A DNA stretch of 64,000 nt from positions 1,302,001 to 1,366,000 of the forward strand of contig NZ_CP013692.1 in NCBI RefSeq assembly GCF_001477625.1, in the 5' to 3' direction. Position numbers and translations under genes: made by a program. The stretch is from Paucibacter sp. KCTC 42545. Its GTDB lineage: Bacteria > Pseudomonadota > Gammaproteobacteria > Burkholderiales > Burkholderiaceae_C. The notes beneath the pieces are model-generated. The model saw only the letters and a list, made by a program, of their open reading frames with translations, did no database searches and was not told the origin of the DNA. Positions 9,124 to 57,360 of the stretch are shown piece by piece (position 1 is the stretch's first letter; each line of letters opens with the position of its first letter).

Positions 9124-9150
9124 AACGCGCTGTTCCAGAGAGAAGCCAAG
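9124..9150 (-). repeat. Leader repeat copy 3 (half hairpin)
   Basis: AACGCGCTGTTC at 9124-9135 and GAAGCCAAG at 9142-9150 match the other two copies, but the second hairpin arm is missing. It lies 37 bases before the start at 9086, in the divergent region between the leftward cluster and the terminase operon (9087-9203). Confidence 0.7.
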
Positions 9151-9203
9151 CTGATTTCGAGTGAATGTCGAAAAAATGATTGAAGGGGTAACCGGTTCTC
9201 AAA

Positions 9204-11710: not shown

Positions 11711-11727
11711 TTTTCAGAGGAGTTTTC

Positions 11728-38831: not shown

Positions 38832-38836
38832 GCTAG
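37886..38836 (+). CDS. IS481-family transposase
   Basis: The product is 316 residues from ATG 37886, with AGGAGG at 37871-37876. An N-terminal HTH (TVAQAAKAHGVSEMTTRKWLGRY) precedes a DDE integrase core with Asp139 (HIDTKK), Asp217 (LTDNGSPF) and Glu253 (GKAERF); the D-E spacing is 35. The stop codon TAG (38834-38836) lies outside the element, in the duplicated target. The gene appears intact and is oriented opposite to the BREX operon. Confidence 0.93.
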   Translation: MNIHKNARLTYVRRIEMVQDITLRGQTVAQAAKAHGVSEMTTRKWLGRYLAQGEVALVDKSSRPQKSPRAIEPGKALAIVELRRKFMLQASIASSLTVSKATVSRVLRRAGLSKLSDLRPPEPVVRYEHEAPGDLLHIDTKKLGRIERPSHRVTGNRADTFGGAGWEVLFVAVDDHARIGFTQIHPDERKSSAVAFLQASVSYYAGLGVTVRALLTDNGSPFRSKDFKQACAELNIKHRFTRAYRPQTNGKAERFIQSALREWAYSQTYQHSRDRTSALARWIHHYNWHRPHHGIGCRPPMSRLPDSGNNVLTLHS

Positions 38837-39149: not shown

Positions 39150-39872
39150 TCATATCGTGCTGCGCAAAGCGACGAACTGGTTACTCGGCCCCTCCGACCG
39201 GAGGTCGAGGTATGGGCAGTTCGACACTACGTATGCCAAAGGTCTCGTCAAGCCAAACGGAAACAGGACAGGCAGTGATTGAAGGCTATGAACTGAAACA
39301 GGCTTGCCGACGTAGCGCACAGCTGCCTCGATGAGCCATACCGTCAGTTCGTCGCTGTCGATTGACGTCGGTGCAAGACGGATGACGCGCTTGCCTTTCT
39401 CGACACGCTCTACCGCGCCCCAGCTTGCTTGTGTCTGGATGACCATATTGGTCATGCGTCGCGTGCCTTCGCGTTCGCCGTAGATCTCGCTCATACGGCG
39501 ATGCACTTCGGCAGCCGCGCAGTCGTCTTGGATAGCCGACAAGCGACCCACCAACTCAGCCACTTTCCCGAAAAACGGATAGCAGGCTATGGCCACGCCC
39601 CAGCACAGTGCCGGAATTGGTGTGCCGGGCTGGCTTTTGTAGAGAGCCGCTGCCCGGTCGGCGTAGTCCACCAGCTCGGCGCGTGGCTCCAACCACAGCC
39701 GGTTCAAGACGGTTCGTGTTTTTTTCTTGGCTTCCACGCCAAGTTCAGCTGCGTCGAGCAGTGCATTCAGATCATCTAGCCCAGCTGTACCCGCACGAAC
39801 TCGTAGTGCCGCAGCCGCCCAATCAAGCTGAATGAACCGATCGAACCCAATCTGAGGGGCTGATGTATTCAT
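39150..39872 (-). CDS. brxA: BREX protein BrxA (DUF1819 family)
   Basis: The product is 240 residues from ATG 39872, overlapping the pglZ stop. The sequence (FIQLDWAAAALRVRAG...; YGEREGTRRMTNMVIQTQASWGAVE) fits DUF1819, the BrxA family, a small DNA-binding, NusB-like helical protein in type I and III BREX. Type III loci end with brxA after pglZ, exactly as here. It is needed for phage exclusion in characterised systems. Confidence 0.82.
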   Translation of the reverse strand: MNTSAPQIGFDRFIQLDWAAAALRVRAGTAGLDDLNALLDAAELGVEAKKKTRTVLNRLWLEPRAELVDYADRAAALYKSQPGTPIPALCWGVAIACYPFFGKVAELVGRLSAIQDDCAAAEVHRRMSEIYGEREGTRRMTNMVIQTQASWGAVERVEKGKRVIRLAPTSIDSDELTVWLIEAAVRYVGKPVSVHSLQSLPVLFPFGLTRPLAYVVSNCPYLDLRSEGPSNQFVALRSTI

Positions 39873-41890: not shown

Positions 41891-44730
41891 GTGCTTTGTG
41901 TCTCCCTCACGCTCTCGCCGGGCTGAACCTCGGCGGAGACGCGTACCATCATTACCGCGTTCAGATCCGGCACGCTGGCCGCAGCCTCGGCCAATGCAGC
42001 CAGTCTGGCGTCGTGTTCTTGTTGCAGGCGCTTGCGGCGATGCTCGCGCACAGCAGGCAGCCCGATGCGGCCGATAGCCTGTTGCCTTGCTTCAAAGGCG
42101 TAGTCAGCACGCTCCCGCTCCTCTTGCAGTCGGGTCCGATGCGCCTCCAGCATCTCGGTAAAGATCCGCTCGCCCTGGGCTTTTGCCGCCGTGAGTGCTG
42201 CGTCAAACCATTTAACCGCCTCTTCGGTGCCGCTGACCCCGTGTACGACCACTGTTTCGGTCAGCAGCAAATCCCACACGCGTTTTGCCGTCGGCACAAA
42301 AGCGCGGCCCTCTTCGTTGGTAAAAACGGGCAGGTAACGCTTGCGGTTCAAGCCTTCTGCCGCAAGGCTGATCTCCCAGAGTGACCAGACTCCGCTCACA
42401 GAATCAGGCAGGCCCGTCACCCGAATCACTGGCAAGGGTTGGCCCGCCACAAAGCGGGGCAACTCGCTGATCACTGCGCGTGCGCGCGGGTCTTCCAGCG
42501 TCACCCACTCAATCTCAGGGTTCTCGTCAGCGGTGCGCGCGTCAAAACACACCTGCGCTGCTTCGCTGCCATCCGCCCAAGTCACACGCCACGCCTTGCC
42601 CACCTTGGTTGCTGCGCCGCCGCGTGCGGCCAAGCCAGAGGTGATGGCCCGCTCCAGCCAGAACTGTGCGGGGTGGTCGCGCCATTTGCGGGCATCGTCC
42701 GCTTCAAGCTCGTGCCCGTCCGAGAGCAATTCGCTGCTCTTTTTTGACTCGGCCAAGGTCTCGCGCAACTGCGAGACCACCACATCGCACTCTTGCTCGA
42801 TTGAAGCTGGGTTCTGCAGACCGTGTACGAACAGTTCTTCAAACAAAGGCTCCGCTTCCGCAGAGTCCATCACGTCAGAGGCCTTGTCCACGCCGAACTG
42901 TTGGGCGATCACTTCCAACTTTTCTTCCAACACCTGGCGAACCCGATGCTCCACGGTGTCTTCCAGCACAAAGTTGATGGCGCGCACCACGTGCCGCTGG
43001 CCAATACGGTCGACGCGGCCAATGCGCTGTTCAATGCGCATAGGGTTCCAAGGCATGTCGAAATTGACGATGACGTGGCAGAACTGCAGGTTCAAACCTT
43101 CGCCGCCAGCGTCTGTCGAGATCAGCACGCGCACGTCTTGTGAGAACGCCTTTTGCGCCTTGCTGCGTGCATCCAGATCCATGCCGCCGTTAAGGGTGGC
43201 CACCGAGAAGCCACGGCTTTCCAGGAAATTGGCCAGCATGGCTTGGGTCGGCACAAACTCGGTGAAAAGCAACACCTTCAGGGCCGGATCGTTTTCTTCC
43301 TGTTGCAGTTTGTAGATCAGCTCCAGCAAGGCTTCTGCCTTGGCATCGGTGCCCGAGGCTTCGGTCTCGCGGGCCAGATCGAGCAGCGTTTCCACCTCGG
43401 ACTTTTCCAGCTCCCATCCGGTGGCCTGCATGGCCAAATCGACCTGCGACTGGCCGTCCAGGTCAGCCCAGTCTTCCTCGTTGGTGTTCTCAAACAACGA
43501 GGGCTGTGGCTGCGGCTCCTCCAGCAGTGCCATTCGCTTTTCCAGCGTGGTGCGAATGGCGGCCGTGCTGGACGTCACCAAGCGCTGCATCAGAATCATC
43601 AAGAAGCCGATGTGGCGCTGCTTGGCGGCCATTGCCTGGTTGTAGCCGTGGCGCACATAGTCGGTTACGGCCTCATACAAGCGTTGCTGCGCGTTGTGGC
43701 GTGCCTGCCAAGCCACCGCTTGCAGCCGGGTGACTCGCGGCTTGAACAGTGGCTGACCATCGGCGTTGATCGACAAGCGCTTTTCGGTGCGAATCACAAA
43801 TGGCCGCACGCGATCGCGGTTTACGCTGCTCTCGTCGGGGAAGGCTTCGCGGTCCAGCAACTGCATCAAGCGCAGGAACTGGTCGGTCTTGCCTTGGTGC
43901 GGTGTGGCCGACAGCAGCAGGAGGTAAGGCGACGCTTCGGCCAGCGCTGCCCCCAGCTTGTACCGCGCCACCTGTTCGGTGCTGCCGCCCATGCGGTGGG
44001 CTTCATCGATGATGACCAGATCCCAGGAGGCAGAGATCAGGTCTTCAAAGCGCTCGCGGTTGTAGTTGTTGAGCTGCTCCAGACTCCAGCCACGCCGACT
44101 CTCCATCGGCTTGACCGAATCCAAGGAGCAGATCACCTGGTCGTGCATACGCCACAGGTTGTCTTCGTCCCCTTTGTTGCCGCTACGCCATTGGCGAAAC
44201 GCCGCCAACTCAGAGGGTTCGATGAACTGCAGTTGCTCACCGAAATGCAAACGCATTTCAGCCTGCCACTGGCGCACCAGCCCTTTGGGCGCGACCACCA
44301 GCACGCGCTTTACCCGGCCCCGCAGCTTTAACTCCCGCAGCACCAGCCCGGCTTCGATGGTCTTGCCCAAGCCGACCTCATCGGCCAGCAGGTAGCGGAT
44401 ACGGTCGCGGCTGATGGCGCGATTCAGTGCGTACAACTGGTGCGGTAGAGGCACTACGCTGGACTGGATGGGCGCAAGCAACAAGTTGTCTTCCAGCGCA
44501 TCCAGCAGCTTGGCCGCCGCAGTGGTGTGCAGGATTTCCTCCACCGTCGGGCGAACACTATCGAGCGGCGCAAGGTCTGAGGCACGCGCCCTCACCACCG
44601 CGTCTTTGGCTGGAAGCCAGACCCGGTAGGCACTCTCACCCCACACCTCTTGCCGATCGATGACGCGGCACGACGCAGCCTGCCGCGTCAGCCAGCACCA
44701 ATCGCCAACGTTGAAGCCACCGCCCGCCAC
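41887..44730 (-). CDS. brxHII: BREX SNF2-type helicase BrxHII
   Basis: The product is 947 residues. The SNF2/RapA-like helicase has motif I DEVGLGKTIEAG (GLGKT at 120-124), DEAH in LVIIDEAHRMGG (~240), motif V TDAGGEGLNLQF and motif VI EQRIGRVDRIGQ. A C-terminal coiled coil (~850-910) follows. Type III BREX is defined by this helicase together with BrxF and PglXI. It probably remodels or translocates on DNA during phage exclusion. The start follows the pglXI stop by 2 nt. Confidence 0.9.
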   Translation of the reverse strand: MAGGGFNVGDWCWLTRQAASCRVIDRQEVWGESAYRVWLPAKDAVVRARASDLAPLDSVRPTVEEILHTTAAAKLLDALEDNLLLAPIQSSVVPLPHQLYALNRAISRDRIRYLLADEVGLGKTIEAGLVLRELKLRGRVKRVLVVAPKGLVRQWQAEMRLHFGEQLQFIEPSELAAFRQWRSGNKGDEDNLWRMHDQVICSLDSVKPMESRRGWSLEQLNNYNRERFEDLISASWDLVIIDEAHRMGGSTEQVARYKLGAALAEASPYLLLLSATPHQGKTDQFLRLMQLLDREAFPDESSVNRDRVRPFVIRTEKRLSINADGQPLFKPRVTRLQAVAWQARHNAQQRLYEAVTDYVRHGYNQAMAAKQRHIGFLMILMQRLVTSSTAAIRTTLEKRMALLEEPQPQPSLFENTNEEDWADLDGQSQVDLAMQATGWELEKSEVETLLDLARETEASGTDAKAEALLELIYKLQQEENDPALKVLLFTEFVPTQAMLANFLESRGFSVATLNGGMDLDARSKAQKAFSQDVRVLISTDAGGEGLNLQFCHVIVNFDMPWNPMRIEQRIGRVDRIGQRHVVRAINFVLEDTVEHRVRQVLEEKLEVIAQQFGVDKASDVMDSAEAEPLFEELFVHGLQNPASIEQECDVVVSQLRETLAESKKSSELLSDGHELEADDARKWRDHPAQFWLERAITSGLAARGGAATKVGKAWRVTWADGSEAAQVCFDARTADENPEIEWVTLEDPRARAVISELPRFVAGQPLPVIRVTGLPDSVSGVWSLWEISLAAEGLNRKRYLPVFTNEEGRAFVPTAKRVWDLLLTETVVVHGVSGTEEAVKWFDAALTAAKAQGERIFTEMLEAHRTRLQEERERADYAFEARQQAIGRIGLPAVREHRRKRLQQEHDARLAALAEAAASVPDLNAVMMVRVSAEVQPGESVRETQST

Positions 44731-44732: not shown

Positions 44733-47573
44733 TCAGAGCCCGTCCTCTGTGCGGGTCAACGCCATGTCATAGAGGGTGAGCAGCTTTTCGTCTTCCTGCA
44801 GTGCATCGTCTGGTACTTTCTTTGCGATGCTGATGATCGTTGCGTAATCCTTGCTGGCCCACGCGGCACGGAAGCCAGCCCGCAAAGCCTCGAGACGAAA
44901 CTCTTTCAGACGACGCCCGGTAAAGCCGCGATAGTGATCAAACTCTTTAAGTAGGGCCTTCTCTCGCTTCTTCTCCAAATCCTGAGCTTTATTCGGGTCG
45001 GGTACGTACCAGCGGTCATTAGCCTTGGCGATCAATGCAGTATCGGTTTTGTCCAAGTTACGAAGATCTTTATGATTTGAGGACAGATATGCATGGATCT
45101 GACTGGGCACTTCACCAGTGCCGTCGTACTGGATGAAGTTGTCCTCCAGTAAGGCGTTCAATTCAGGTTTGGATTCGTGCTTCTTCCAGCCAGCGCCCAG
45201 TTGACTAATAAAGTCAGTGTGGATTTCTTGATACGTAGAAGGCCGACGCTTTAAGAAATCCGTTAACCAATCGATCGCACTGCGTTCGTCAGAAACAAAC
45301 ATCTCCATTTGCGGCGCAACTGCAACTTGCAATCGCTTTCTGTCGTACTCAGTTACCTGATCGGCCAAAAATATCATTCCATCGCGCTCAATGAAGCGTT
45401 GAACCAATCCAGCTTGAAACTCCTGCGTAGACATTGGGACCTGGACATTGTGGCGGAAGAACCATGCCACCATCCGGTCAAAAATAATCCGAGGGTCTCG
45501 TTCGGAAATGAACTCTAATTGACCATCTTTGACCTTCACTGTTGGCAGGTAGTGCAGGTGAGTTCTGACAAAATCCCAAACTGAATCCTCGCTTCCGCCG
45601 GCCTTGGCGAATCTATCTTCAAGTCCTCCATTTGGTTTGTATGCTGAAATTACTAGATCTTGCTTGACGGAGGTTTTGTTATTTACAGCGTTAAAGCTTC
45701 CCTGCTTCTTATCCAGGGCAGAGACATTGGCGACTACAAACCCTGCCTCCTGCAAAGAAGTTTGAATCGCATTCCACACGGCAGCTTGGCTGTTTGAGAA
45801 TTCGACTGTCATCCAACGTCCGGGCTTAAGTGTGCGAAATGCTTCACCAAAGCAACCAGTCATTAGTCGACGGTAGCTGTCCAATGATTTGGATTGACTG
45901 TTGTTTTCGATAGCCTCAGATTTTGAATTGGTCCGGACCCCAAGCCACCCTTCGGTTAAGAAATTTAGCTCCGAATACATCAGATTCCCTCCGAAAGGTG
46001 GGTCAACAAAGATGTAATCAAGTGAGGCGCTGCCTACGCTTGCCAATGCTCCCATGGAGCCCGTAGAAACTACATTTCCACCTCGAGCAGAAATTAATCG
46101 CTTCATGCGGAACGTCTTATCGACATGCTCGTTCAAAAGCTTAATGGCTGGTATTTCCTTAATGAGCGACGGAACATAAAGAGTTCCGTTCATAGGTCCT
46201 CCACCCGCTCCCAGACTTCCGTTCTGAGAACGGAACCGATACATTAGTGATGCCACCTGTGCTGTGGATGTGAGATTGAATGCGTAGCTCAATGGCCGGG
46301 TTCCTGCTCGGTAGGCGGCAAGAATTTCTAGGTTACGGCGAGTGTAGAAGTGATGTTGCTTGGTTATGCCAACACTCATTGGGTCACTGGTCTTGTCACC
46401 TTTGGGGATGGACTCGGTTGGTACATACCGGGTGACCGGCATTGACTCAATCTTTTCAACGAGGGCTAGGTCTGCCGAATCAGGCCCTTTGGTAAAAAAT
46501 GACTTCCCGACTGAATAGTGAATTAGTGCCGGCCGCCGTTTTACGAAACGCCGCTCTTCGCCAGTCACCGGGTCTAATTGAGTGACAAAGAGGCGGTCTA
46601 GTGCCTTTTTGTTCAAATTTTTTCCGCATGACGGGCAATCGAATACTTCTTTTACTTGGAAGTCACTTTTGTCTACAGCTGAGTCCCAATAGATAATTTC
46701 TGATGCGCACTCTGGGCACGAAAATACATCAGACCACACCGTGTAATTTATCCGACCAATACGACCACTAAGTTGTGGAGTGCTTGATGCGCCGATCTCT
46801 TTAATGGCTAACGATATTTGATTGGCGTCAGGCTGATGCAATGTTTGAAACATCCAGCCGAATTCATCTTCTATTTGGCGCAATACCTTTTTGGCTTTTG
46901 CCTCTTGTAGATCTAAATCCAATGGAGAGTTGTAATTGTGTGAAATGAAGGTTGCTGCTGTCGATAGATCATTCAAAATTGCGTGACGCGCCCCAAGTTT
47001 CGAAAATACTTTCCAGTCAGCACCTTTTTCGTCGCTGACTGGGGCAAGAATATTGCCGTGCTGATCTACTCTGTATCCGAGCGACTCGACTACTGATTTA
47101 TCTCCACACAGCCTAGCAGCGACACCTGTCATCCCTGTGCCAGCAAAGCCATCCAAGACAAAATCACCCGGCACCGTGTAATGCAGGATGTAGCGCATGA
47201 TTGCCTTATGCGGAACTTTTGTGTGATAGCTGTGTGCCGTGTAAATGGGATCGTTTTTTCCCTCGCTCACATCAGCTGTGAACGGCTCCTTGCTATAGCT
47301 TTCAGTTGAGCTGTAAGGGCGTCCAAAATGCTTAACAAAGTCTTCAATGAATGGGTTTGGACACGCGGTGTAATAGGGTGGATCGGATAGTTCCAAAATA
47401 TGCTCGTCAGATCCGATTGAAAACCCATCGAGTTTTCGGAATGTTGGATCTTTGAGCTTTTCTGCGAGTAGGCTTAGATAATGCTCGCGACGGGCCTCGT
47501 CGGTTGGGAAAGTCTTCCCAAGGCATTCCACTGGACCAGATTGGGGCGCGTGGTTTTGAAAAAGATCACTCAT
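44733..47573 (-). CDS. pglXI: BREX adenine methyltransferase PglXI
   Basis: The product is 946 residues. SAM-binding DGFAGTGMTG lies near residue 140 and the catalytic DPPF motif near 524 (VDPPFGGNLMYSEL). A zinc-ribbon pair, CPECASEI and CPSCGKNL, sits between them. BREX methyltransferases mark host DNA so that the system ignores self. The gene is visibly more A+T-rich than brxHII and brxC on its two sides, especially 45300-47500, which suggests replacement of the specificity gene. The frame is intact. Confidence 0.88.
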   Translation of the reverse strand: MSDLFQNHAPQSGPVECLGKTFPTDEARREHYLSLLAEKLKDPTFRKLDGFSIGSDEHILELSDPPYYTACPNPFIEDFVKHFGRPYSSTESYSKEPFTADVSEGKNDPIYTAHSYHTKVPHKAIMRYILHYTVPGDFVLDGFAGTGMTGVAARLCGDKSVVESLGYRVDQHGNILAPVSDEKGADWKVFSKLGARHAILNDLSTAATFISHNYNSPLDLDLQEAKAKKVLRQIEDEFGWMFQTLHQPDANQISLAIKEIGASSTPQLSGRIGRINYTVWSDVFSCPECASEIIYWDSAVDKSDFQVKEVFDCPSCGKNLNKKALDRLFVTQLDPVTGEERRFVKRRPALIHYSVGKSFFTKGPDSADLALVEKIESMPVTRYVPTESIPKGDKTSDPMSVGITKQHHFYTRRNLEILAAYRAGTRPLSYAFNLTSTAQVASLMYRFRSQNGSLGAGGGPMNGTLYVPSLIKEIPAIKLLNEHVDKTFRMKRLISARGGNVVSTGSMGALASVGSASLDYIFVDPPFGGNLMYSELNFLTEGWLGVRTNSKSEAIENNSQSKSLDSYRRLMTGCFGEAFRTLKPGRWMTVEFSNSQAAVWNAIQTSLQEAGFVVANVSALDKKQGSFNAVNNKTSVKQDLVISAYKPNGGLEDRFAKAGGSEDSVWDFVRTHLHYLPTVKVKDGQLEFISERDPRIIFDRMVAWFFRHNVQVPMSTQEFQAGLVQRFIERDGMIFLADQVTEYDRKRLQVAVAPQMEMFVSDERSAIDWLTDFLKRRPSTYQEIHTDFISQLGAGWKKHESKPELNALLEDNFIQYDGTGEVPSQIHAYLSSNHKDLRNLDKTDTALIAKANDRWYVPDPNKAQDLEKKREKALLKEFDHYRGFTGRRLKEFRLEALRAGFRAAWASKDYATIISIAKKVPDDALQEDEKLLTLYDMALTRTEDGL

Positions 47574-47623: not shown

Positions 47624-50600
47624 TCACTCAATGATGAAGCGCAGTTTTTCCGGATCTTCCTTGCCCTTGCAGCGCTCTTTCAGGAAGGCCTCAAAGCGCT
47701 CGCGCACGTCCTTGAGCGTGGCCGGTGAACCACCCAACAGCAGCGCTTGCTTGATCTCGTCTCCTTTGACCACGACTTTTTCCAAACCAACCAGTGCCAT
47801 CTGCACGGCGTTGGAAAACTCGCTGGTGATGGGGTCTGGCAGCGTGCGTGACGACAAGAATGCGTTGATGAGCTTCTTGCTGGCGTCCGGCAACAGGCCA
47901 AGGCTTTCCTGTGTGAAGGGGTCTTCCAAGTTTTCCAGCAGGGTTTGCTGCCAGTTGGCAATGAGCTGATCCAGATCGTCATCCAGCTTATGCAGTGCTT
48001 TGGCGGCGGGGATGCTCAGCTCCAACTGCTCGGCAGAGGGGCGGTATTGGCAGTGCGGGCACACCGCGACGGTGTTCAACGTCGGCTCGTCCAGTGCTGA
48101 GCAGCTTTTGAGGCCGTTCAGCGACTCTTCAAACGTGGTGAGCTGGCTGACGTTCATCATCTCCACACCGGCCAAGACGCGCAGGCCTTGCAGACGCGGG
48201 TCGTTGCGCAGGGTGTTGCGGCTCTTTTCTTCTGACACGCCGAGCCGCGCCTTGGTGTGGCTGGCGATGTAGGCGTTGATGTAGTCCTTCTTGAGCTGGT
48301 TGAGCGTTTGCCGGTACTCGCTGGCGTGTTCCGCCGTGCGGTCTTTACTCAGCTTTTCTTGCATCGCTTTGCGGGCGGCTTCGGCCTGCTTGACCCATTC
48401 GTGCGCAGCAGGCAGCACCATTTCGGCTTGCGACAGGTAGGCTGCCGTGCTGCCCAGCTCCACCACCAGATCGAGCATGCGCTCAACGGCGGCCAGGACC
48501 TCCAGATTCTTTTTCTGCGCTTCGATGTCCTCTTGGGTGACGCGCAGATTCTTCAGCTTGCCGACGGTGTTGTACGGCGACAGGTCTTCGGTGAACTTTT
48601 TGAGCGAATCCAGCCGGGCGTGCCAGTCCTTGGATTCTTCCTCGCGCAGCAGGTTTTGGCCCCAAAAGCCGAGCTTGCCTTGTTGCAGATCCGAGCCCGC
48701 CTTGAGCACGCGTGGCGTCATGACGCTGATGCGGTCTTGCAGTTCACGCACCGATTCCGGGTCGCCCTGCGTGGCCTTTTGCGCCCAGCCGGAGGCCAAG
48801 CCAAAGAACTCGAACAAGGCCTTCAGCACGGCGACATTGATTTCTTTGGGCGCTTCGATGTGTTTGAACTGCTTGAGGTCTTCAAGCGAACGTTCAGCCA
48901 GTTGCACCAGCTTGCCGGAGTCGATCTTGTCGCCGGTGATGGACAGCACCAAGTCACCGGAGTAAACCAAGCCGCTCAGCACGGTGACCAATAGGTCGGG
49001 CTCCAAGCGGTACTTGATGGGCGCAAAGTATTCGACATCCGCAGTGCCCGAGAGCAGTTCGCTGCGGTTGAGCACCTGGCCGTGGCCCTTGTCCTTCAGG
49101 CGCTTCAGCACTTCCTGGGCGTAGCGGGAGCTGGCGGGCTCGATGCGATCGCCGTCCAGCAGTTCCAGTGCATCCAGGATGGCCACGGCGTCTTTGGTGC
49201 GGTTTCCACCGGCCAGGGCACGCAGCGCATTGCCGACCAGTTGCTTGCGGTTGGCTTCAGTAAACAGAACCGAGAACGTGGGGTACTCGGGGGCCAGATC
49301 CACAAAGTGCTGGCTGAGTGCCAGTCCAGAAGTGATGTTGACCACATCGCGGAAGTTGATGCGCTCATCCGGCCCAAGGCGCGCACGGTCGCGCAGGGAG
49401 ATGCCTTTGGACCAGTCTTGCAGGGTCTTGGTTTTGCCCTGGTAGGTCACTTCAAAGGCGGTCATCTGCTTTTCCTGCAGCCATTTACCCATGGCTTTGA
49501 GGAAGTCCTGGGCCTTGGACATGTAGATGGCCTTGGCCCCGCCACTGGCGGTGGAAGCCAGTTCCAGCGCCGCAGCGTAGGAGGACAGGTGGCGCTTGAT
49601 GTCTTCGTCCAGGCCTTTCAGACGGAAAAAGACTTCATCGGACAGGTTGTTGTCTGTGAACTTGCGTTTTTCGAATGGCGGGATGAAGTAGATGTAGAAG
49701 TCCCGCTCGGGCTGGGCCGTGGGCCGGTCGTTCGGCGCACCAAAGAACAGGTAACCGATGCGATCGGCACGGCGCTCCTGCCATTCGATCTGGTACTGCC
49801 AGATCTGAAAACCAGAGACGTAGCTTGGATCGTTCGGATTCTCTCGAACCAGCTGCAGCAGGGCCGCGTAGTAGGCGCGATCAAGTTGGTCGTCATCGAG
49901 GCTACCGGTGCGGTTTTCGATTTGCGCGTCGTAGTCGATGTCTTTTTTCAGGTCGAGGTAGTACTGCTCGGTGTCAGCGGCTTTAGAGATGAACTGGCCG
50001 TTGACGGTTTTGAGCACTTCCCGCAGGACCGTCACGACCTTTGAGAGCAAGTTCTCGGCCGCATCACCGGGCAAGTCAGCAATCGTTGGGTCAAACAAGC
50101 AGAGGGCGTCACGCAACTCTGCTGCGGTGGGGCCGATAGGCACGTGAATGTCGCCGCCGGTGGTCAGGCGATGCACGGCCAGTGCGTTGATGACGCGCAG
50201 CGCCATCCCTTTGTAGGCTGGCCGGGTGAACGACTGCTGCACGCGAGACTCCAGCACATCGGAGACGCGCAGGACTTCCTTGATGTTGGCATCTGGGCGC
50301 AACGCAGAATTCTTCTTGATGGTCTGCCAGTAGCTCTCGTAGCTGATGAGCTCGGGCTTGTCGGTGGGTACTTCCTGGTCCAGTAGCGCCTTCATCGCGG
50401 CTTCGATGGTGGTCAGTGCGCCCCGCTTTTCGGCGAAATGGATCTGCTCAAAGGTTTTGAGGTAGTCCGGGTGAACGGGGAACAGTCGGACGTATTCGTC
50501 CATGCGTTCGTTCATGGAGCCGTAGAACTTGGTGAACGGCGTGAGGTACTCGCGGATCTTGTTTTGCTGATCGGCGCTCTTTTTGAGCAAGCGCGCGGCG

Positions 50601-51376
50601 ACCACAAAGCTGACGTCATTGCGGTCGATCAGAATTTGCGTAAAGCGTTCGTGCACGCGGCGCATGCTGCTGGCCACGTGCTCGAAGCGGGCACTATCAA
50701 AAATGGCTTCCTGCACACCTGCAACAAAGCGGAACTTGAGGTGCTTGGTGACTTCGCCAATCTGGCGCAGGATGGCCAGATCGAGTGCCAGTTCGTGGCC
50801 GCGACGGGAATCGAGGTATTCAAGGAACTCGTCCACCACCAACAGAATGCCTTGGCCCGGGTAGACGTCTTCAAACGCTCCCATCATTTCTTCGAAGGAG
50901 TGCTTGTTGTCCAGCTCCTGGTCGGCCGTGGGGAACGTGTAGGAGACGCCAAGGTTGGCCAGGAACTCTTGCAGCCTGCGGGTGATGATTTGGCGCAGGG
51001 GCATCTCCAGACCACCCACCTCGATACGCAGCACCTTGAACTTGCCCGCGATGGACGCAGCGGCTTCGGCCACCTTCGGATGGCGAAGCATAGGGGCGTA
51101 GGCCGCATCTTCGGCCACCAGCGACAACACCGACATCAGGTGCGACTTACCCGTGCCGTAGTTGCCGACGATCAGCACACCTTTATGGTCAACGGTGTCG
51201 TCGAAGCTGATTTGAGGAATCATGAGCTTGGCGATCCGCTCGGCCATGTCATCGGAAATGACGTAGGTGGTGACGAGCTTCTTGGCCTCATCGGGCCGCC
51301 CGGCGTCGAGCAATTGAATGACCGATTCGATTTGCTCGAACTGGACCAGATCACCGTATTTCATCTTGTTAGCCAT
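47624..51376 (-). CDS. brxC: BREX ATPase BrxC
   Basis: The product is 1250 residues. Walker A GNYGTGKS is at residues 71-78 and Walker B-like GILLVVDEFLEYL near 175. Long helical regions follow, with a CPHCQYRPS zinc knuckle near the C-terminus. The family is the large AAA+ BrxC/PglY/DUF6079 group, essential in BREX. It lies 22 nt after brxF and 50 nt before pglXI. The gene is intact and high-G+C. Confidence 0.9.
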   Translation of the reverse strand: MANKMKYGDLVQFEQIESVIQLLDAGRPDEAKKLVTTYVISDDMAERIAKLMIPQISFDDTVDHKGVLIVGNYGTGKSHLMSVLSLVAEDAAYAPMLRHPKVAEAAASIAGKFKVLRIEVGGLEMPLRQIITRRLQEFLANLGVSYTFPTADQELDNKHSFEEMMGAFEDVYPGQGILLVVDEFLEYLDSRRGHELALDLAILRQIGEVTKHLKFRFVAGVQEAIFDSARFEHVASSMRRVHERFTQILIDRNDVSFVVAARLLKKSADQQNKIREYLTPFTKFYGSMNERMDEYVRLFPVHPDYLKTFEQIHFAEKRGALTTIEAAMKALLDQEVPTDKPELISYESYWQTIKKNSALRPDANIKEVLRVSDVLESRVQQSFTRPAYKGMALRVINALAVHRLTTGGDIHVPIGPTAAELRDALCLFDPTIADLPGDAAENLLSKVVTVLREVLKTVNGQFISKAADTEQYYLDLKKDIDYDAQIENRTGSLDDDQLDRAYYAALLQLVRENPNDPSYVSGFQIWQYQIEWQERRADRIGYLFFGAPNDRPTAQPERDFYIYFIPPFEKRKFTDNNLSDEVFFRLKGLDEDIKRHLSSYAAALELASTASGGAKAIYMSKAQDFLKAMGKWLQEKQMTAFEVTYQGKTKTLQDWSKGISLRDRARLGPDERINFRDVVNITSGLALSQHFVDLAPEYPTFSVLFTEANRKQLVGNALRALAGGNRTKDAVAILDALELLDGDRIEPASSRYAQEVLKRLKDKGHGQVLNRSELLSGTADVEYFAPIKYRLEPDLLVTVLSGLVYSGDLVLSITGDKIDSGKLVQLAERSLEDLKQFKHIEAPKEINVAVLKALFEFFGLASGWAQKATQGDPESVRELQDRISVMTPRVLKAGSDLQQGKLGFWGQNLLREEESKDWHARLDSLKKFTEDLSPYNTVGKLKNLRVTQEDIEAQKKNLEVLAAVERMLDLVVELGSTAAYLSQAEMVLPAAHEWVKQAEAARKAMQEKLSKDRTAEHASEYRQTLNQLKKDYINAYIASHTKARLGVSEEKSRNTLRNDPRLQGLRVLAGVEMMNVSQLTTFEESLNGLKSCSALDEPTLNTVAVCPHCQYRPSAEQLELSIPAAKALHKLDDDLDQLIANWQQTLLENLEDPFTQESLGLLPDASKKLINAFLSSRTLPDPITSEFSNAVQMALVGLEKVVVKGDEIKQALLLGGSPATLKDVRERFEAFLKERCKGKEDPEKLRFIIE

Positions 51377-51398: not shown

Positions 51399-51854
51399 TT
51401 AAATCTCAAGTGCGACCACGCCATTAGCGTCGTAGTCGCGGTATTCCGGGTGGGTCATCTCGGCGTAATACAGCCGATTCCCGCGCAGTTCGCCGGGCCA
51501 AACGGCCACGACGCGCTTGGAGTGCGCCAGTCGTTTGATCAGATCCAGCGGATTGATCTCCAAGCCACGCTCAAACAACAACTCGATGTTGTCGAGCAGC
51601 AGCACCTCTTCTTTACCCTGCTTGTCAGCGATATCCCGCAGCAGCTGGCCCGCAGAAAAGCCACGCGCTGCGTGCGGCGTAGCCGACAAGCGACGCCCCA
51701 ACTCCAAGTTGACGTTCAGCGGCTGGACACCCAGCTTGGTTCCCAACTCTTGTAGCAACTTGGTTTTGCCACTGCCACGCGGCCCAGCCAGCACGATGAG
51801 TTTTGTGTGCAATTCACCAAGCTGGTCTACGTACCGTTCCAGTTTTGTCAGCAT
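51399..51854 (-). CDS. brxF: BREX small ATPase BrxF
   Basis: The product is 151 residues. Walker A GPRGSGKT lies at residues 24-31 and Walker B EEVLLLDNIE near 87. The size and position immediately before brxC match BrxF, a marker of type III BREX. It begins 10 nt after the brxR stop, so it shares that transcript. Confidence 0.87.
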   Translation of the reverse strand: MLTKLERYVDQLGELHTKLIVLAGPRGSGKTKLLQELGTKLGVQPLNVNLELGRRLSATPHAARGFSAGQLLRDIADKQGKEEVLLLDNIELLFERGLEINPLDLIKRLAHSKRVVAVWPGELRGNRLYYAEMTHPEYRDYDANGVVALEI

Positions 51855-51864: not shown

Positions 51865-52779
51865 TCATTCCGCCTCGGCTTCTGGCCGAAGGTGGTCAGG
51901 CGAGCGGTAGCCGGGTGCGAGCAGCGCGTTCTTCACGCCATAGAGCGCCAGGTGATCCCGCAGCCACAGTCGATATTCAGGGCCTCGCAGGCTGTGATCG
52001 GGGGAGCAGTCCACGCTCCACTTGCGCAACACATAACCGGCAGTGGCGGCGCGCAGATTCATCTTGAGCAGGCCATCGCGCATGCCGTAGTCCAGCAGAG
52101 TGACCTCTGGTCGTGACTGATCTGGGTGGGGAACGAGCTCCAGTTCAACGATGCGAGTCCACTGGATATCCTGATCAGGACGCTCATGTGCCTCAACATG
52201 GGCATCTTTCAACACGGCAGGGTCTTGAATCCGGGTCAGCACAAAGTCTCGAAACTCACCCGACTTGCGGTCGAAGGCGCGGGTGTGCCAGCGCAAGCCA
52301 GTGTCCAGTAAGGCGAAAGGGACGATCTCACGCTCGCTTTGGCCGTTTTCGACAGATTGGTACTTGATTCGCACGGGGCACTTGTGACTGATGGCCCGGG
52401 TGATGCTGGCCAGCGTGCTGAGATCGGGCTGCCCCAGCTTGTTGGGAATGTCGCAGGTGATACCGGTGCGGGAGCGGACCGGTTCTCCATCCCCAAAGCC
52501 TTCAGCCAGCCACGTCAGGACTCGCTCGGCCGGAAAGTCAAACAGAGGCGTGAACGCTCGCCCAATGATGTATGTCTTGGAGCTCCCGTCGTACTCGATG
52601 TTTGCTGGGGCCATCTCTTTGTAGAGCCCCAGGTCTCGGGTAGCTGCGGCTGTTTGGATTCCGAAGCGGGACGCCATGTCCTGGCGGCGGATTTCGCCCA
52701 CGAACCATAGTCGCAGCTCGATGTACGCCATTCGGTCACGCTGGGCGTGTCCAAGTTCTTGTAGGCGATCTGTGGTCAT
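51865..52779 (-). CDS. brxR: WYL-domain transcriptional regulator of the BREX operon (BrxR-like)
   Basis: The product is 304 residues. An N-terminal winged HTH (RMAYIELRLWFVGEIRRQDMASRFGI, ~17-55) precedes a WYL domain (~122-200) with RIKYQS at 137-142, and a WCX-like C-terminal extension. BrxR proteins repress BREX and adjacent promoters and release on ligand binding. It is the first gene of the operon. The 151-base region upstream is shared with the divergent Nudix-like gene. Confidence 0.85.
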   Translation of the reverse strand: MTTDRLQELGHAQRDRMAYIELRLWFVGEIRRQDMASRFGIQTAAATRDLGLYKEMAPANIEYDGSSKTYIIGRAFTPLFDFPAERVLTWLAEGFGDGEPVRSRTGITCDIPNKLGQPDLSTLASITRAISHKCPVRIKYQSVENGQSEREIVPFALLDTGLRWHTRAFDRKSGEFRDFVLTRIQDPAVLKDAHVEAHERPDQDIQWTRIVELELVPHPDQSRPEVTLLDYGMRDGLLKMNLRAATAGYVLRKWSVDCSPDHSLRGPEYRLWLRDHLALYGVKNALLAPGYRSPDHLRPEAEAE

Positions 52780-52930
52780 CTTCTGTTACTCGATTCCAAG
52801 TGGACTGATGTAGATCGTCGAGAGTATAAAGGGTCGATTGTTGTGTGTCGATACGATCCTGTAGTTAAATAATCAGCATCAAAAAGAGTCTGATTGAAGT
52901 ATGATTGTGCAAGTCAAGGAGAGCAAAACT
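52780..52930. promoter_or_regulatory. Divergent promoter region with possible BrxR operator
   Basis: This region drives brxR leftward and the 52931 operon rightward. GATCGTCGA (52813-52821) faces TCGATACGATC (52848-52858), an imperfect inverted repeat that could be the operator. The AAGGAG for the rightward gene is at 52916-52921. No clear -35/-10 pair was picked out. Confidence 0.45.
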
Positions 52931-54931
52931 ATGTGGCTCATCACCTCCGTCGGATTTTTCAGCGTTGTACAGAAGCCGGGCGACAAGCAGAACGGCACGT
53001 TGACGGTGCGCTCGCGAGTCCGTAGCGACCTGGCAGCTCTCAAGCAGCACTATCTTCCTGGCTTGGGGCCGATCCAGGAGAGTCTCGATACCGACTACCG
53101 TTTCAGGGCGGTCGCGCCGCGCGCCGAGGTCTCCGCCGCCATGGCGCGGATGATCGAAAACTTGGACTATGGCAACTTCAAGTCAGAGGTGGCCAAAAAG
53201 CAGGGGCCAAAGCGCGCGAGCCTGTATCACCAGGTTTGGGATGTGCTCTACCAGTTGCAGACCTCCCCAAATTTTGTCGAAACAGAACCCACCGCAGACA
53301 GCTATGGTGGCGTGGTGGTCAGTGGTGGGCACAAAGTCCTTCTTCGCGAGCCAGCCAAGCACCACGGCGGGTATGCCTGGACCTTTGCCAAGACCGTGGC
53401 CAAGGAGGGAGAGTCACCGCGCGATGCTGCCATCCGCGCCGTGCGAGAGAAAACGGGCTATGACGCGGAAATCCGCATCAGCGTCCCAGGCGTCTTCAAA
53501 GGCTCCTCGTCCAACACCTGCTACTACGTGATGGATGCCAAGCATCCCCCTGCGAAGCCGAGCTGGCAGACCGCTGCCTTGCGTTGGGTAATTTTTGATG
53601 AGGCTCGCGATCTGCTTCGGCAGTCACCAAACGCCGAAGGTCGCGATCGGGATCTGGCCATTCTTGACGCGGCGGAGAAGGTGGCCGGGATCATCGCTTA
53701 CAAGGAACACCCGAATGTCCAGCCGGAAGACTGGACGGACCTCAAGTCCATGCCTGAGCGGCACACCGTGCTCTATCCGAAGCTGCGCTTCAACCCCGAT
53801 GAGATGGCGAACATCCGGCGCGGCTTCTTACCCACGGTAATGGAGCAGAAGTGGTTTTTGTACTTCACCGGCGACCGGCTAAGGATGCACCGGAGCTGGA
53901 CTGGCGTCCTGATCTTTGACGTGGGATTCGCCTTTGACCCCAAGGGTGGCGCCTACGTCACCGACGTGATCGTGAACCGGGAAAACCGGGAGTACAGCAA
54001 CACGGATGACGATGAAGACCTGAAGCTGCTGGAGGAGATCATTCGGTACCACCTGCTTCAGCCGTTGGAGGAGCCGGAGGTGGATGGCTTCGTGAAGGCA
54101 ATGGGTCTGGCCATGCAGCCGAAATACCTCGGATCACCAGAGGTGGTGACTGCGCTGGTCAAAGAGATTTTCGACGTCGCCATTCGCGCGTTGGCCGAAG
54201 AAGCGACCGAGAAAGACTTCGTCGAAGCCGTAGGGAAGGTGATTGCAGCGTTTACGGATGACAACGCGGGCTACACCCGGATGCCGGGTTGGCACAGCGC
54301 CGAGCAGATGGGGGGCTACATCAAAAAGTACCTCAGCGGCAGCGACCAGGGCGAGCACCTGGCAGAGATCATCGGTAACGGCATGACTGCGCTAATTGCC
54401 AAGTTGCAGGAAATGCTGGGTGGTTTCTTGCAGGACCCTGCCGCCAATTGGGAGGAGCACGCGCTGGTTCAACTCAACGCGCTTCATCAGTTCGTGGTGA
54501 CAGTTCTTCTTGGCACCAATACGGTGCTGTCTGGCGGGAAGACCTTGAGCGACTTTCAGTGGGTGCCGATTGCCGCCGGAGCCGGGAATAAGCAGGTCAT
54601 CGTCGACGTGGGTTCCGAAGGTGGTTCATTGACCTTGTACGGCGTGCAGTCTCCCGAGGGCTGGCAGTTCCGGGTTGAAACCAATGAATCTGCACTGGAG
54701 GACGATGAGGATATGACGGATCTGCCGGAGCGTCCCTGGGTGGGAACGTGGCGCAGTGCCCTGAAGCAGCTTGATGCACACCCGTGGACTCAACTTCATC
54801 CTCTGGCGGTTCATTCGGAGTTTTGCGATCGAGTTTTCAAGGCCTTGCAGACCCGGAAGAAAAAAGGCCTTGTGATCGATTGGGATCAATGGGGCAATGT
54901 CCTGAAAATCTTCGTAGATGAAGAACAGTGA
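52931..54931 (+). CDS. Large protein with degenerate Nudix domain, divergent from brxR
   Basis: ATG 52931 is preferred because AAGGAG lies 9 nt upstream and MWLITSVGFFSVV is a typical family N-terminus; an upstream ATG at 52901 lacks this. The 666-residue product has an N-terminal domain (1-110) seen elsewhere as a small stand-alone protein and a Nudix fold at ~122-232. A module with WFLYF...HRSWTG near residues 305-325 follows, and then a C-terminal half of unknown fold. The Nudix box is altered: two of three expected glutamates are Ala170 and Lys174. It may sense rather than hydrolyse a nucleotide. Confidence 0.72.
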   Translation: MWLITSVGFFSVVQKPGDKQNGTLTVRSRVRSDLAALKQHYLPGLGPIQESLDTDYRFRAVAPRAEVSAAMARMIENLDYGNFKSEVAKKQGPKRASLYHQVWDVLYQLQTSPNFVETEPTADSYGGVVVSGGHKVLLREPAKHHGGYAWTFAKTVAKEGESPRDAAIRAVREKTGYDAEIRISVPGVFKGSSSNTCYYVMDAKHPPAKPSWQTAALRWVIFDEARDLLRQSPNAEGRDRDLAILDAAEKVAGIIAYKEHPNVQPEDWTDLKSMPERHTVLYPKLRFNPDEMANIRRGFLPTVMEQKWFLYFTGDRLRMHRSWTGVLIFDVGFAFDPKGGAYVTDVIVNRENREYSNTDDDEDLKLLEEIIRYHLLQPLEEPEVDGFVKAMGLAMQPKYLGSPEVVTALVKEIFDVAIRALAEEATEKDFVEAVGKVIAAFTDDNAGYTRMPGWHSAEQMGGYIKKYLSGSDQGEHLAEIIGNGMTALIAKLQEMLGGFLQDPAANWEEHALVQLNALHQFVVTVLLGTNTVLSGGKTLSDFQWVPIAAGAGNKQVIVDVGSEGGSLTLYGVQSPEGWQFRVETNESALEDDEDMTDLPERPWVGTWRSALKQLDAHPWTQLHPLAVHSEFCDRVFKALQTRKKKGLVIDWDQWGNVLKIFVDEEQ

Positions 54932-54958
54932 GGTTTAAATGCAAAGAAGGGAGCAGAG

Positions 54959-55492
54959 ATGAGTGCAGCAGCGATTGTGAAGGCAGCCCAGTTTGCGGCC
55001 GAGAAACACAAGAACCAACGTCGAAAGGATGCCGATGCGTCCCCGTACATCAATCACCCCCTGGCGTTGGCCAGTGTGTTGGCCGTTGAGGGGGGAGTTG
55101 AAACGCCGGAAGTAATTTGTGCCGCACTGCTGCACGACACCGTTGAGGACACAGAAACCACTGCTAAGGAACTGGCGGCCATCTTCGGCGCCAAGGTGAC
55201 TGGCATCGTGCTGGAGGTGACCGACGATAAGAGTCTCGACAAGGCGGTGCGAAAAGAAGAACAGGTACGCCATGCCCCGCACATTTCGCCGGAGGCCAAA
55301 CTCGTCAAGCTGGCCGACAAGATCTGCAATCTCAGGGACATCCTGGCATCCCCGCCAGCGGACTGGAGTGCTGACCGAAAACGGGAGTACTTTGACTGGG
55401 CAGCAAGGGTTGTGGCAGGGCTTCGTGGTGTGCATCCTGCGCTAGAGGCTGTTTTTGACGAGCTGTACGGCCGACAGGCTGAACTGCTTTAA
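54959..55492 (+). CDS. MESH1-type HD-domain (p)ppGpp hydrolase
   Basis: The product is 177 residues, the length of animal MESH1. It keeps the metal and substrate residues: His33 (INHPL), His59-Asp60 and Glu63-Asp64 (ALLHDTVEDT), Asp120 and Asn124 (KLVKLADKICNLRD), plus the basic NQRRKDADASPY loop. There is no synthetase domain. Such enzymes remove pyrophosphate from (p)ppGpp and some act on NADPH. It sits 27 nt after the Nudix-like gene and 2 nt before the next gene, in a clear operon. Confidence 0.88.
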   Translation: MSAAAIVKAAQFAAEKHKNQRRKDADASPYINHPLALASVLAVEGGVETPEVICAALLHDTVEDTETTAKELAAIFGAKVTGIVLEVTDDKSLDKAVRKEEQVRHAPHISPEAKLVKLADKICNLRDILASPPADWSADRKREYFDWAARVVAGLRGVHPALEAVFDELYGRQAELL

Positions 55493-55494
55493 CG

Positions 55495-56553
55495 GTGGCG
55501 CGGATGCGAATCGAACAGCACATCGTTGCAGCCTGGGCAAGGCAACTGAGCGACAAGCTCATCAAGGATTCCATAGCGGCTTTGGAGCAGATGGATGCCA
55601 ATGAAATGCTCTCCGGAGATGACTCGGGCCTGAAAAATGTGTGGGAGGAGATTTGCGTCCAGGTACAACAGGAAGAGTCCATCTTTTGGGATGCCTACCT
55701 CGAGACTATGGAGGGTCTTTTGACTGGCTTCGTCGAGTTGCTGGATAGGGACGCGCGCATGGCCTTGTGGGCAGTTACCGACGAGGGTTCGGACTATGTT
55801 GATGACCACCAGGCAGACACAGACGGCGTTCGTGACGTCCCTGTCTCAGAAGATGAAATTGTCAGCAAGCTGAAGGATGAGTTGTTGTCAGCGGCAGCCA
55901 ATTATTCGAACTCGCGCATCACGAAGTTTCTCGCGCGCCACGAGGATGGCTACGACGAACTCGAGGAAGATGAGGATGACGAGGATCTGGATGACGATGG
56001 AGCAGAAGAGCAAGCGGAAACCACAAAGCGATTTTTCGACCTGCGACCTGCAGTAACTGACCCGGTGGTTTTTGTTATCACTAGGCAGCTGATCGATGAT
56101 ATGGATGTTGAAAGCTCTCTCGATTTCCTCCGGTCCCTCGTTCCTGTCGAACGCCCTGAACACGCATGGGCCTACAAGGGGCGCTTGTCGTTGATGATCA
56201 GCGGGTATGACAGTGATCCGCGAGAGCTGTACGAGATTTCTGAGGTCTGCCATTACTTGCGCGCGCTGGATGCCGAATGGCCGTTCTGGCTGTTTTTCTT
56301 CAATCAGGCAGATGAGTCCATCAAAGTGGTCGCAATGTGTTTGGCCTCGGCGATTGAAGTCGCACCCGGTGCCGCGCACATCGATTCGAAAGGTCTGAAG
56401 CACTTTCTGGAGAGAGGATTTGCAGCCGTTAATTACCTGTTTGATACCTACGGGTTCCCCGAGTCGGAAAACGAAGTGCTGTCGATGGGTGTGACGCAGA
56501 TACTCGAAAACAGCATGATTGAACCGGATCGTGATGGATACAGCCTTGGGTAA
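55495..56553 (+). CDS. Unknown acidic protein, third gene of the MESH1 operon
   Basis: GTG 55495 or ATG 55504 starts a 352- or 349-residue protein just after the hydrolase stop. The N-terminal third is helical. An acidic stretch at about 160-178 (ELEEDEDDEDLDDDGAEE) forms a linker. The C-terminal half (FLRSLVPVERPEHAWAYKG...) looks helical and globular. No known motif is visible. Its 2-nt spacing from the hydrolase gene implies a linked function. Confidence 0.65.
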   Translation: MARMRIEQHIVAAWARQLSDKLIKDSIAALEQMDANEMLSGDDSGLKNVWEEICVQVQQEESIFWDAYLETMEGLLTGFVELLDRDARMALWAVTDEGSDYVDDHQADTDGVRDVPVSEDEIVSKLKDELLSAAANYSNSRITKFLARHEDGYDELEEDEDDEDLDDDGAEEQAETTKRFFDLRPAVTDPVVFVITRQLIDDMDVESSLDFLRSLVPVERPEHAWAYKGRLSLMISGYDSDPRELYEISEVCHYLRALDAEWPFWLFFFNQADESIKVVAMCLASAIEVAPGAAHIDSKGLKHFLERGFAAVNYLFDTYGFPESENEVLSMGVTQILENSMIEPDRDGYSLG

Positions 56554-56610
56554 ATCTCGGAACCTCGACAGCGCTCGCGGCTGTGGTGAGCTTGCAAGGC
56601 AAAGTTCAGT

Positions 56611-57360
56611 ATGACCATTGTTCGTGGCGTCAGAATTATGGCTTCGACGTGTTGTGGGGCACAGTATTCCTTTCCCAGGTATGTGTCGATGAACTTTTCG
56701 GCATTCGAATACTGGACCGACGGCTGGCGAGAGTACTCACTCATGCCTAACGATGAGGGGATTCGTCGCTGCACTTGCGGTCAATTTGTCTTGCTGAAAG
56801 ACATGGTCGCAGTCGATGCCGCTGACTCCTCGGAGCTGCCGTATATGGATCGTGTACCAGATGAGCTTTTACCCGAGTGCATTTCCAAGGCAGCAAGCGA
56901 GGAAATGGAGGTTGCGGCAAGGCTCGGGTACTGGCGACATCTCAATCACGAATATCGACAGGCTTACCGTCAGCACAGGGATGCGGAAGAAGCCACCACC
57001 AAGGCGGCATGGGAGGCCGCCAACCCCGATCGCCGAACTTGGTGGGATAAGTTGCGCCGCCAGAAACCGCCCAGCTACAGCAGGCCGGTGGACAGCCCGT
57101 TCACGTATCCGGCGTTCGAAGCCACAGACGCGCAGCTTGAAAACATGAAGCTATTGAGCGCGATACTGGAGAAATGGGGCTTCGCCTCGCGGCCTGGGTA
57201 CACCATGGAGCTTACAGAGCTGTACCGAGAGCAGGGTCGCTTTGATGAGTCCCAGAAGGTAATTCTGACACTTGACCAACGAGATGTCGGCGTAACCAGC
57301 AACCTCATTGGCAAACTGATCAAGGAAAAGCAATCCGCGCCAATGCGCTACAGGATGTGA
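56611..57360 (+). CDS. Unknown protein with zinc-ribbon-like N-terminus
   Basis: The start is uncertain (ATG 56611 or ATG 56638). The N-terminal part has CCGAQYSFPRY, a WTDGW motif and CTCGQF, which could form a zinc ribbon. The middle has a basic helical stretch (RRTWWDKLRRQKPPSY) and the C-terminus a TPR-like pair of helices (LTELYREQGRFDESQKVIL). It resembles an uncharacterised bacterial family I know only from the C-x-C...WTDG pattern. It is the last gene of the operon. Confidence 0.6.
   Translation: MTIVRGVRIMASTCCGAQYSFPRYVSMNFSAFEYWTDGWREYSLMPNDEGIRRCTCGQFVLLKDMVAVDAADSSELPYMDRVPDELLPECISKAASEEMEVAARLGYWRHLNHEYRQAYRQHRDAEEATTKAAWEAANPDRRTWWDKLRRQKPPSYSRPVDSPFTYPAFEATDAQLENMKLLSAILEKWGFASRPGYTMELTELYREQGRFDESQKVILTLDQRDVGVTSNLIGKLIKEKQSAPMRYRM

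Follow-up and report, generated by a model that had tools for sequence, protein, structure and literature searches.

Gene content of the operon and its control region

We analyzed a 64,000-nucleotide stretch (the window; bases 1302001–1366000) of the one-contig 5.17 Mb genome of Paucibacter sp. KCTC 42545 (NZ_CP013692.1), in which a four-gene operon lies divergent from a WYL transcription factor gene at the end of a type 3 bacteriophage exclusion (BREX) locus. The operon encodes a large protein with a degenerate Nudix domain, a predicted MESH1-type HD phosphohydrolase, and two further proteins. Among the loci compared, the recurring unit was the WYL–Nudix–HD block and not the four-gene set. 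The features of the operon and its control region are as follows (window coordinates).

51865–52779, minus strand: BrxR/CapW-type WYL transcription factor, divergent from the operon
52871–52895, between brxR and gene 1: operator-like 10-5-10 imperfect inverted repeat, AATCAGCATC-AAAAA-GAGTCTGATT
52931–54931, plus strand: gene 1, Nudix-fold multidomain protein of 666 amino acids
53285–53716, plus strand: Nudix domain of gene 1, with the degenerate box RAVREKTG (residues 169–176)
53717–54580, plus strand: C-domain of gene 1, with an HRSWxG motif (T in 21 of the 23 aligned rows)
54959–55492, plus strand: gene 2, predicted single-domain MESH1-type HD phosphohydrolase of 177 amino acids (HD_4; MESH1 at the top in PDB)
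55504–56553, plus strand: gene 3, C-terminal half weakly CRR6-like
56611–57360, plus strand: gene 4, protein of 249 amino acids with a cysteine-rich start

The list of open reading frames (ORFs) agreed with a preliminary description of four co-directional plus-strand genes at 52931–57360, and the intergenic gaps of 27, 2, and 57 nucleotides (the second becomes 11 if gene 3 begins at 55504, the more probable start) bear out the closely spaced operon described there. The control region proposed to be common to the operon and the BREX regulator was likewise recovered, as the divergent WYL gene is of the BrxR/CapW type. For gene 1, the start at 52931 (MWLIT...) given in the preliminary description was preferred over 52901, which opens a longer ORF, because a ribosome-site-like stretch (AAGGAGA) is present and the Accumulibacter ORF opens at the aligned ATG. 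The gene 3 ORF opens at GTG 55495, and most of the relatives printed begin with MRIEQ, which corresponds to ATG 55504. A scan for promoters and terminators gave a result no better than chance. The ratios of nonsynonymous to synonymous substitution rates (dN/dS) against the Accumulibacter relative (L004) were 0.064 for the Nudix protein, 0.049 for the HD protein, and 0.037 for the WYL protein; these figures are approximate because dS was 1.3–1.8, and they correspond to strong purifying selection, by which the operon is more than a set of chance ORFs.

Related loci and the recurring unit

The neighborhood comparison found all four genes jointly in only one other locus, L003, a contig of a Hydrogenophaga metagenome-assembled genome (MAG). 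L003 carries the same stretch, with BrxC 99%, BrxF 96%, the WYL protein 99.7%, and the four operon proteins about 98% identical, and the genes onward to the recombinase 98–100% identical to the window. The proposal that the four genes form one undescribed, conserved system was therefore rejected, as, among the loci compared, they are together only in the window and its near-copy. PglX was merely 55% identical (window 44733–47573 against L003 570–3347), which points to an exchanged BREX methyltransferase, likely with altered DNA specificity. Between pglX and brxC, L003 contains about 1.4 kb of sequence absent from the window.

The second locus, L004 (a Candidatus Accumulibacter MAG), has the order WYL, divergently Nudix, RtcB, HD, a 574-amino-acid protein, and MksE/ATPase/DUF7281 genes, which we take to be Wadjet-like. 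Its WYL protein is 92% (270/294), its Nudix protein 86%, and its HD protein 86–87% identical to those of the window, and neither gene 3 nor gene 4 was seen in it. On the other side of the WYL gene are DUF499, DUF7680, and DUF1156 genes and a partial ORF clustering with helicases. The "BREX-related" systems, published in 2026, center on a DUF499 ATPase, an N6-methyltransferase, and a helicase (PMC12839542). With RtcB inserted and DUF499/DUF1156 genes as neighbors, L004 indicates that the WYL–Nudix–HD block and its promoter region stay constant while the defense partner changes. As close kin of the cassette stand beside another defense system, it is probably a mobile accessory module rather than a complete new defense system. 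The two ORF callers were imperfect, one giving wrong strands in places and the other, based on codon position, missing genes (e.g., in L004), and we relied on annotated records and direct tblastn.

Regulator and candidate operator

The WYL protein aligned over nearly its full length (residues 5–292) with 7qfz (278 bits, 7.1e-82), which we take to be BrxR of E. fergusonii, and also matched CapW 9c5g (123 bits) and BrxR 7t8k (85 bits), so that the similarity to BrxR/CapW covers both the winged helix-turn-helix and the WYL parts. The inverted repeat at 52871–52895 (8 of 10 positions pairing, 5-bp spacer) lies 35 nucleotides upstream of the gene 1 start. The noncoding region between brxR and gene 1 (151 columns) was 71% identical to that of L004 and contained one invariant run of 25 nucleotides, a length reached in 71 of 20000 column shuffles; this run spans the 10-5-10 repeat except for its outermost base. 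BrxR sites are described as 10–11 bp repeats with a 5-bp spacer (PMC9122601). The WYL protein would bind and repress at this candidate operator.

A degenerate form of the operator pattern matched nine times in the window against a mean of 2.3 in shuffles (none of 100 shuffles reached nine): one match was exact (52872–52894), one had a single mismatch (43589–43611, within brxH), and seven had three. The exact pattern was absent from the viral contigs. Among four plasmid relatives of the WYL protein (57–60% identity), L121 (25/500 shuffles) and L124 (87/500, 11-bp arms) have repeats with ATC-AAATT-GAT centers, and L122 and L123 showed no repeat above chance at 5-bp spacing. Because these plasmid relatives precede restriction-modification or other genes, the regulator is not BREX-specific; BrxR-type regulators before non-BREX genes are likewise reported in PMC9122601.

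The degenerate Nudix protein and its relatives

Gene 1 was divided in this analysis into an N-domain (residues 1–118), a Nudix domain (119–262), a C-domain with the RSW motif (263–550), and a C-terminal extension (551–666). The Nudix fold was recognized by Pfam (NUDIX, 3.4e-9). An active Nudix box has the consensus RExxxEExG, and since gene 1 reads RAVREKTG at this place, the protein was correctly described at the outset as a degenerate Nudix; two glutamates of the box are lost in its clade. Among the 120 relatives listed, the box was A..EK in 69, S..EK in one, E..EE in 16, of other forms in three, and not read in 31. PADLOC assigned no defense family to any of the four operon genes and gave one weak SIR2 match on gene 1 (E 0.056).

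Family matches of gene 1, mostly to single domains, were present in 18/399 genomes of the family, 14/399 of the order, and 4/398 of the phylum, and a single-protein search returned seven of 369 genomes of the class, six of them weak (the own genome is counted in each figure). Close relatives were found at three loci in a pattern scan of named genomes. The viral contigs returned 15 gene 1 loci, mostly Nudix-only matches and some in very long ORFs; in L048, L051, L052, L054, L055, L057, and L058, gene 1-type Nudix domains lie within ORFs of about 1200–4700 amino acids.

Relatives of gene 1 are tied to ADP-ribosylglycohydrolase (ARG) in several arrangements. The beta part of the C-domain is elsewhere found alone or fused to ARG, as in L059, where it is joined to a whole ARG. 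In L076, a NUDIX–ARG fusion directly precedes an N-domain stretch with an internal stop; in L006 and L045, the Nudix gene directly follows an IMPase–ARG fusion, with the Nudix protein of L006 split into two ORFs in the annotation; and L007 has ARG, a hypothetical gene, and an N-domain–Nudix gene, with the WYL gene divergent. On the short contig L125, the HD gene (71%) and gene 4 (77%) flank the C-terminal half of an ARG, after a fragment related to the 574-amino-acid protein of L004. This ARG half (L125 1016–1942) is joined to an N-terminal part of about 150 amino acids without a Pfam match and is either a remnant or a novel combination of domains. The N- or C-domain of gene 1 may be a peptide-binding chaperone (vWA, SseB, TY-Chap) or the ARPP of ARG-centric systems.

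In L008 (a Sphaerotilus plasmid), a MavL-type ADP-ribosylhydrolase gene stands two positions ahead of the N-domain gene, which is preceded by Sir2, MavL-type macrodomain, and DSP genes. The whole cluster (2056–12539) comprises WYL, ATPase, Sir2, MavL-type macrodomain, DSP phosphatase, N-domain, 592-amino-acid protein, MoxR, and VWA genes; a cluster of this type is also present in L068, as judged by matching ORFs, and the two may represent an ADP-ribose conflict system.

The MESH1-type HD protein

Gene 2 matched Pfam HD_4 (5.8e-18), and its top solved relatives were human and fly MESH1 (best 5.9e-54, 186 bits), with a wide margin over the next match, a protein from Listeria (62 bits). In the alignment to the solved relatives, the stretches of the HD motif were conserved. 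With a lone HD domain, putative metal and catalytic motifs, and no synthetase domain, the protein is predicted to be of the MESH1 or small alarmone hydrolase (SAH) class, in agreement with the preliminary assignment of a single-domain hydrolase with the key residues. A bacterial SAH acts on (p)ppGpp, pppApp, and NADPH (PMC9765508), MESH1-type enzymes also act on (p)ppApp (PMC7644958), and coenzyme A (CoA) is a MESH1 substrate (PMC13221220).

No small alarmone synthetase was found in the genome, in which PF04607 matched only in two open frames (765 and 777 amino acids) outside the window; the synthetase partner expected of a toxic small alarmone synthetase (toxSAS) pair is thus missing. HD relatives with 60–80% identity occurred in 14 plasmid records. 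In five such contexts (L018–L022), L022 lists NUDIX and metallophosphoesterase genes in the same run, and no NUDIX gene is listed in the incomplete gene table of L018–L021. The L022 run (6337–8483, a Variovorax plasmid) is operon-like, with NUDIX, hypothetical, calcineurin-like phosphoesterase, and MESH1-type HD genes, and represents an independent pairing of Nudix and HD.

Genes 3 and 4

As noted earlier for these two genes, no family could be assigned: gene 3 had a CRR6 match below threshold and gene 4 no confident family in Pfam and NCBIfam, and neither had a confident Pfam match to vWA, SseB, TY-Chap, or ARPP. Relatives of gene 3 were found in 10/250 genomes of the family and those of gene 4 in 2/180 (own genome counted in both), and the non-own matches of gene 3 span about half of the protein or less. 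No relative of either gene was found in the viral contigs. Five further gene 3 loci had neither ARG nor WYL in the profile search, and gene 4 occurs on a Rhodoferax plasmid without Nudix or HD.

Setting in the window

The adjoining locus contains brxF, brxC, pglX, a helicase gene, and pglZ, which identifies it as type 3 BREX and substantiates the suggested tie of the operon to defense islands. Its genes are as follows.

39869–41890, minus strand: pglZ (PADLOC)
41887–44730, minus strand: brxH helicase (PADLOC)
44733–47573, minus strand: pglX methyltransferase (PADLOC)
47624–51376, minus strand: brxC/pglY (DUF6079; Pfam, PADLOC)
51399–51854, minus strand: brxF of type 3 BREX (NF033453, 175 bits against a cut-off of 50)

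An ORF at 39150–39872, considered for brxA, had no NCBIfam or Pfam match. The left part of the window is a lambda-like prophage (949–24010; GpA terminase, portal, S49 protease, tape measure), with two neighboring N6/N4 methylase genes at 4673–7446. It is followed by two GmrSD ORFs, an IS481-type transposase gene, the BREX locus, the WYL gene, and the operon, beyond which lie ParB-like, DUF3987, and serine recombinase genes. The N- and C-terminal parts of the GmrSD type IV restriction protein are two separate minus-strand ORFs (35106–36941 and 37886–38836) near the transposase gene.

Interpretation and alternatives

We read the operon, with a probability of roughly 45%, as an accessory cassette under BrxR repression, belonging to BREX and BREX-related islands, whose products would process nucleotides bearing ADP-ribose or phosphate, or RNA ends, that arise in infection. 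Its computed basis comprises the gene content, the divergent regulator, the conserved operator-like site, the purifying selection, the partner change in L004, and the ties of the Nudix protein's domains to ARG; the repression, the ligand, the substrate, the scaffold role, and any phage phenotype are inferred. The WYL protein would sit on the inverted repeat upstream of gene 1 and keep the operon off until an infection-derived ligand, either a nucleotide or a piece of RNA, released it. The HD protein would hydrolyze a (pyro)phosphate at the 2′ or 3′ position of a small nucleotide or an RNA terminus, and the large Nudix-fold protein would bind an ADP-ribose-like ligand or a modified target as a receptor or scaffold, without cleavage; genes 3 and 4 would be exchangeable adaptors. 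The HD protein is most likely the catalytic part and the Nudix protein a binder rather than a cleaver. The loci compared suggest that the control region of brxR is able to move together with an operon foreign to BREX and to serve again next to differing restriction systems. Also in favor of an accessory cassette are L064, where an HD fragment (60% over 40 amino acids) lies at the contig edge upstream of N-domain and Nudix genes, and the fact that no small alarmone synthetase was found in the genome.

Several observations weigh against this reading. Seven of nine further loci with HD of at least 60% identity (L018–L022, L125, L131–L133) have no queried partner gene, and the N-domain and Nudix also occur after a GTPase gene, presumably YchF-like, in two genomes. 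The inverted repeat taken alone is statistically weak, since mononucleotide shuffling reaches it in 30 of 500 trials for the window and 152 of 500 for L004, and L005, L007, and L062 had no repeat clearly above chance; it is kept as an operator candidate because of its position, layout, and conservation taken together. ARG was found neither in the operon, the window from 42001 to 64000, and the whole genome nor in L003 and L004, and the ADP-ribose link therefore rests on relatives. One of these, L008, has Sir2, which the ARG-centric template excludes.

The profile counts stand on both sides: the ARG and WYL detections favor the reading, and the loci lacking these genes weigh against it. Small profiles detected ARG in 5/14 C-domain loci, 1/26 N-domain loci without a C-domain, and 0/39 HD loci, and WYL in 6/14, 5/26, and 0/39, so that eight of the 14 C-domain loci lack WYL and nine lack ARG (contig ends and lone beta domains are among them); these counts are descriptive and not a test, because the profiles were partly seeded from the same loci, L003 copies the window, and the HD loci are mostly viral. 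The WYL seeds included the window, L005, L007, L062, L008, L067, and L101 among others, and the ARG seeds were L006, L045, and L007. Of the HD loci, 32 are viral contigs, and in 29 of these the HD identity is 29–43%. The viral loci L045 and L059 were kept, and 13 viral loci (L046–L058, four with an N-domain match too), L106, and short stubs were excluded. The partial ARG of L125, itself among the 39 HD loci, escaped the ARG profile but is detected by Pfam, and the annotated WYL gene of L006, cut by the locus end, was not counted.

The position of RtcB between Nudix and HD in L004 keeps an RNA-end or tRNA repair cassette among the rivals, although we consider it unlikely. The HD protein would strip (pyro)phosphate from tRNA 3′ ends, RtcB would rejoin the RNA, and the Nudix protein would handle or bind 5′ ends; harm done by immune effectors or phage enzymes that cut tRNA would thereby be limited. 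Pyrophosphorylation by toxSAS is reversible by hydrolase antitoxins (PMC9712102), and RtcB rejoins cut RNA, often restoring tRNA (PMC11090510). However, RtcB was seen in this one locus only and was not found in the genome of the window, no tRNA-cutting effector was found among the window proteins scanned, no small alarmone synthetase was found in the genome, and the Nudix box of gene 1 is lost. The known substrates of SAH and MESH1 would also permit a nucleotide-depletion effector that, upon release of BrxR, lowers NADPH, CoA, or (p)ppGpp, hampers phage growth, and backs up BREX. The control region common to the operon and the BREX regulator fits this reading, and phosphoesterases deplete nucleotides as antiviral effectors in other systems, according to the BREX survey (PMC12839542). 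We regard it as quite improbable; HD relatives with 67–71% identity (L018–L020) lie among genes without a listed defense function, and no partner toxin was seen.

That unrelated metabolic or cargo genes came by chance to lie beside brxR on a mobile island would agree with the confinement of the four-gene set to two near-identical loci and with the occurrence of HD, gene 3, and gene 4 relatives without the rest. A passenger status is nevertheless doubtful to the same degree as depletion, as the WYL, Nudix, and HD genes and the intergenic site stay joined while the defense partner changes, and selection is strongly purifying. SAH-type hydrolases neutralize toxSAS (PMC9712102), from which an antitoxin role for gene 2 might be proposed; it is disfavored as highly improbable, since the only two RelA/SpoT synthetase-family matches of the genome are the long open frames outside the window. 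More speculative than passenger status or depletion, and far less improbable than the antitoxin role, is a portable immune-metabolite arm, in which one BrxR-type switch would control the DNA-modification system, BREX or BREX-related, together with an arm for nucleotide processing, and a catalytically dead Ap4A/Ap6A-hydrolase-like Nudix would sense an infection-made ADP-ribose-type nucleotide and direct the MESH1-type hydrolase. If true, this would give BREX a previously unknown second-messenger or RNA-repair function.

The accessory cassette that we favor would provide a concrete, testable link between BREX-type defense and ADP-ribose or alarmone chemistry. It is a good entry point, as it offers a candidate operator, a predicted MESH1-type enzyme class with known assays, and a degenerate Nudix as a candidate binder, and the ARG-centric systems are predictions (PMC9503650).

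Comparison with known systems

The WYL protein resembles BrxR/CapW repressors in its sequence and in the 10-5-10 repeat of the divergent region, with the difference that the repeat here directly precedes an operon that is not part of BREX and lies across brxR from the BREX genes. Gene 2 resembles MESH1 and other small alarmone hydrolases in its predicted single HD domain, conserved motifs, and score to human MESH1, and differs from them in lying within a BREX-linked operon. Type 3 BREX is the neighbor of the cassette in the window and L003, and a DUF499 BREX-related system is its neighbor in L004; the main text of PMC12839542 contains no occurrence of Nudix, HD domain, SpoT, RtcB, or ADP-ribos. 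Among the entries listed from the open-access literature on BREX with Nudix or alarmones, RtcB with ARG or WYL, and small alarmone hydrolases or Mesh1 in phage defense, none dealt with the cassette.

The closest published counterpart is the prediction, made in 2022, of ARG-centered systems as host counters that reverse viral ADP-ribosylation (PMC9503650). These are described as having WYL or Nudix regulators, phosphatases (rhodanese/DSP type, calcineurin-like, or alarmone-related HD), and other parts, and no coupled transferases or sirtuins. The cassette shares with them a WYL one-component regulator, a coupled alarmone-type HD phosphatase, and variable accessory genes, and its Nudix protein has relatives that adjoin ARG or are fused with it. 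Unlike in these systems, no ARG was found in the window, L003, or L004, its Nudix protein is large, degenerate, and not a regulator, RtcB is included in L004, and it adjoins BREX-3 or DUF499 genes. Because parts and partners are common to that family, the cassette may work like such systems and be derived from them, but in view of the missing ARG it was not filed as an ARG-centric member. The "new arrangement" of the preliminary description stands only in part, as WYL- or Nudix-regulated ARG systems with an alarmone-type HD were already predicted. What is new is the WYL–Nudix–HD block beside both BREX-3 and a DUF499 locus, without a glycohydrolase.

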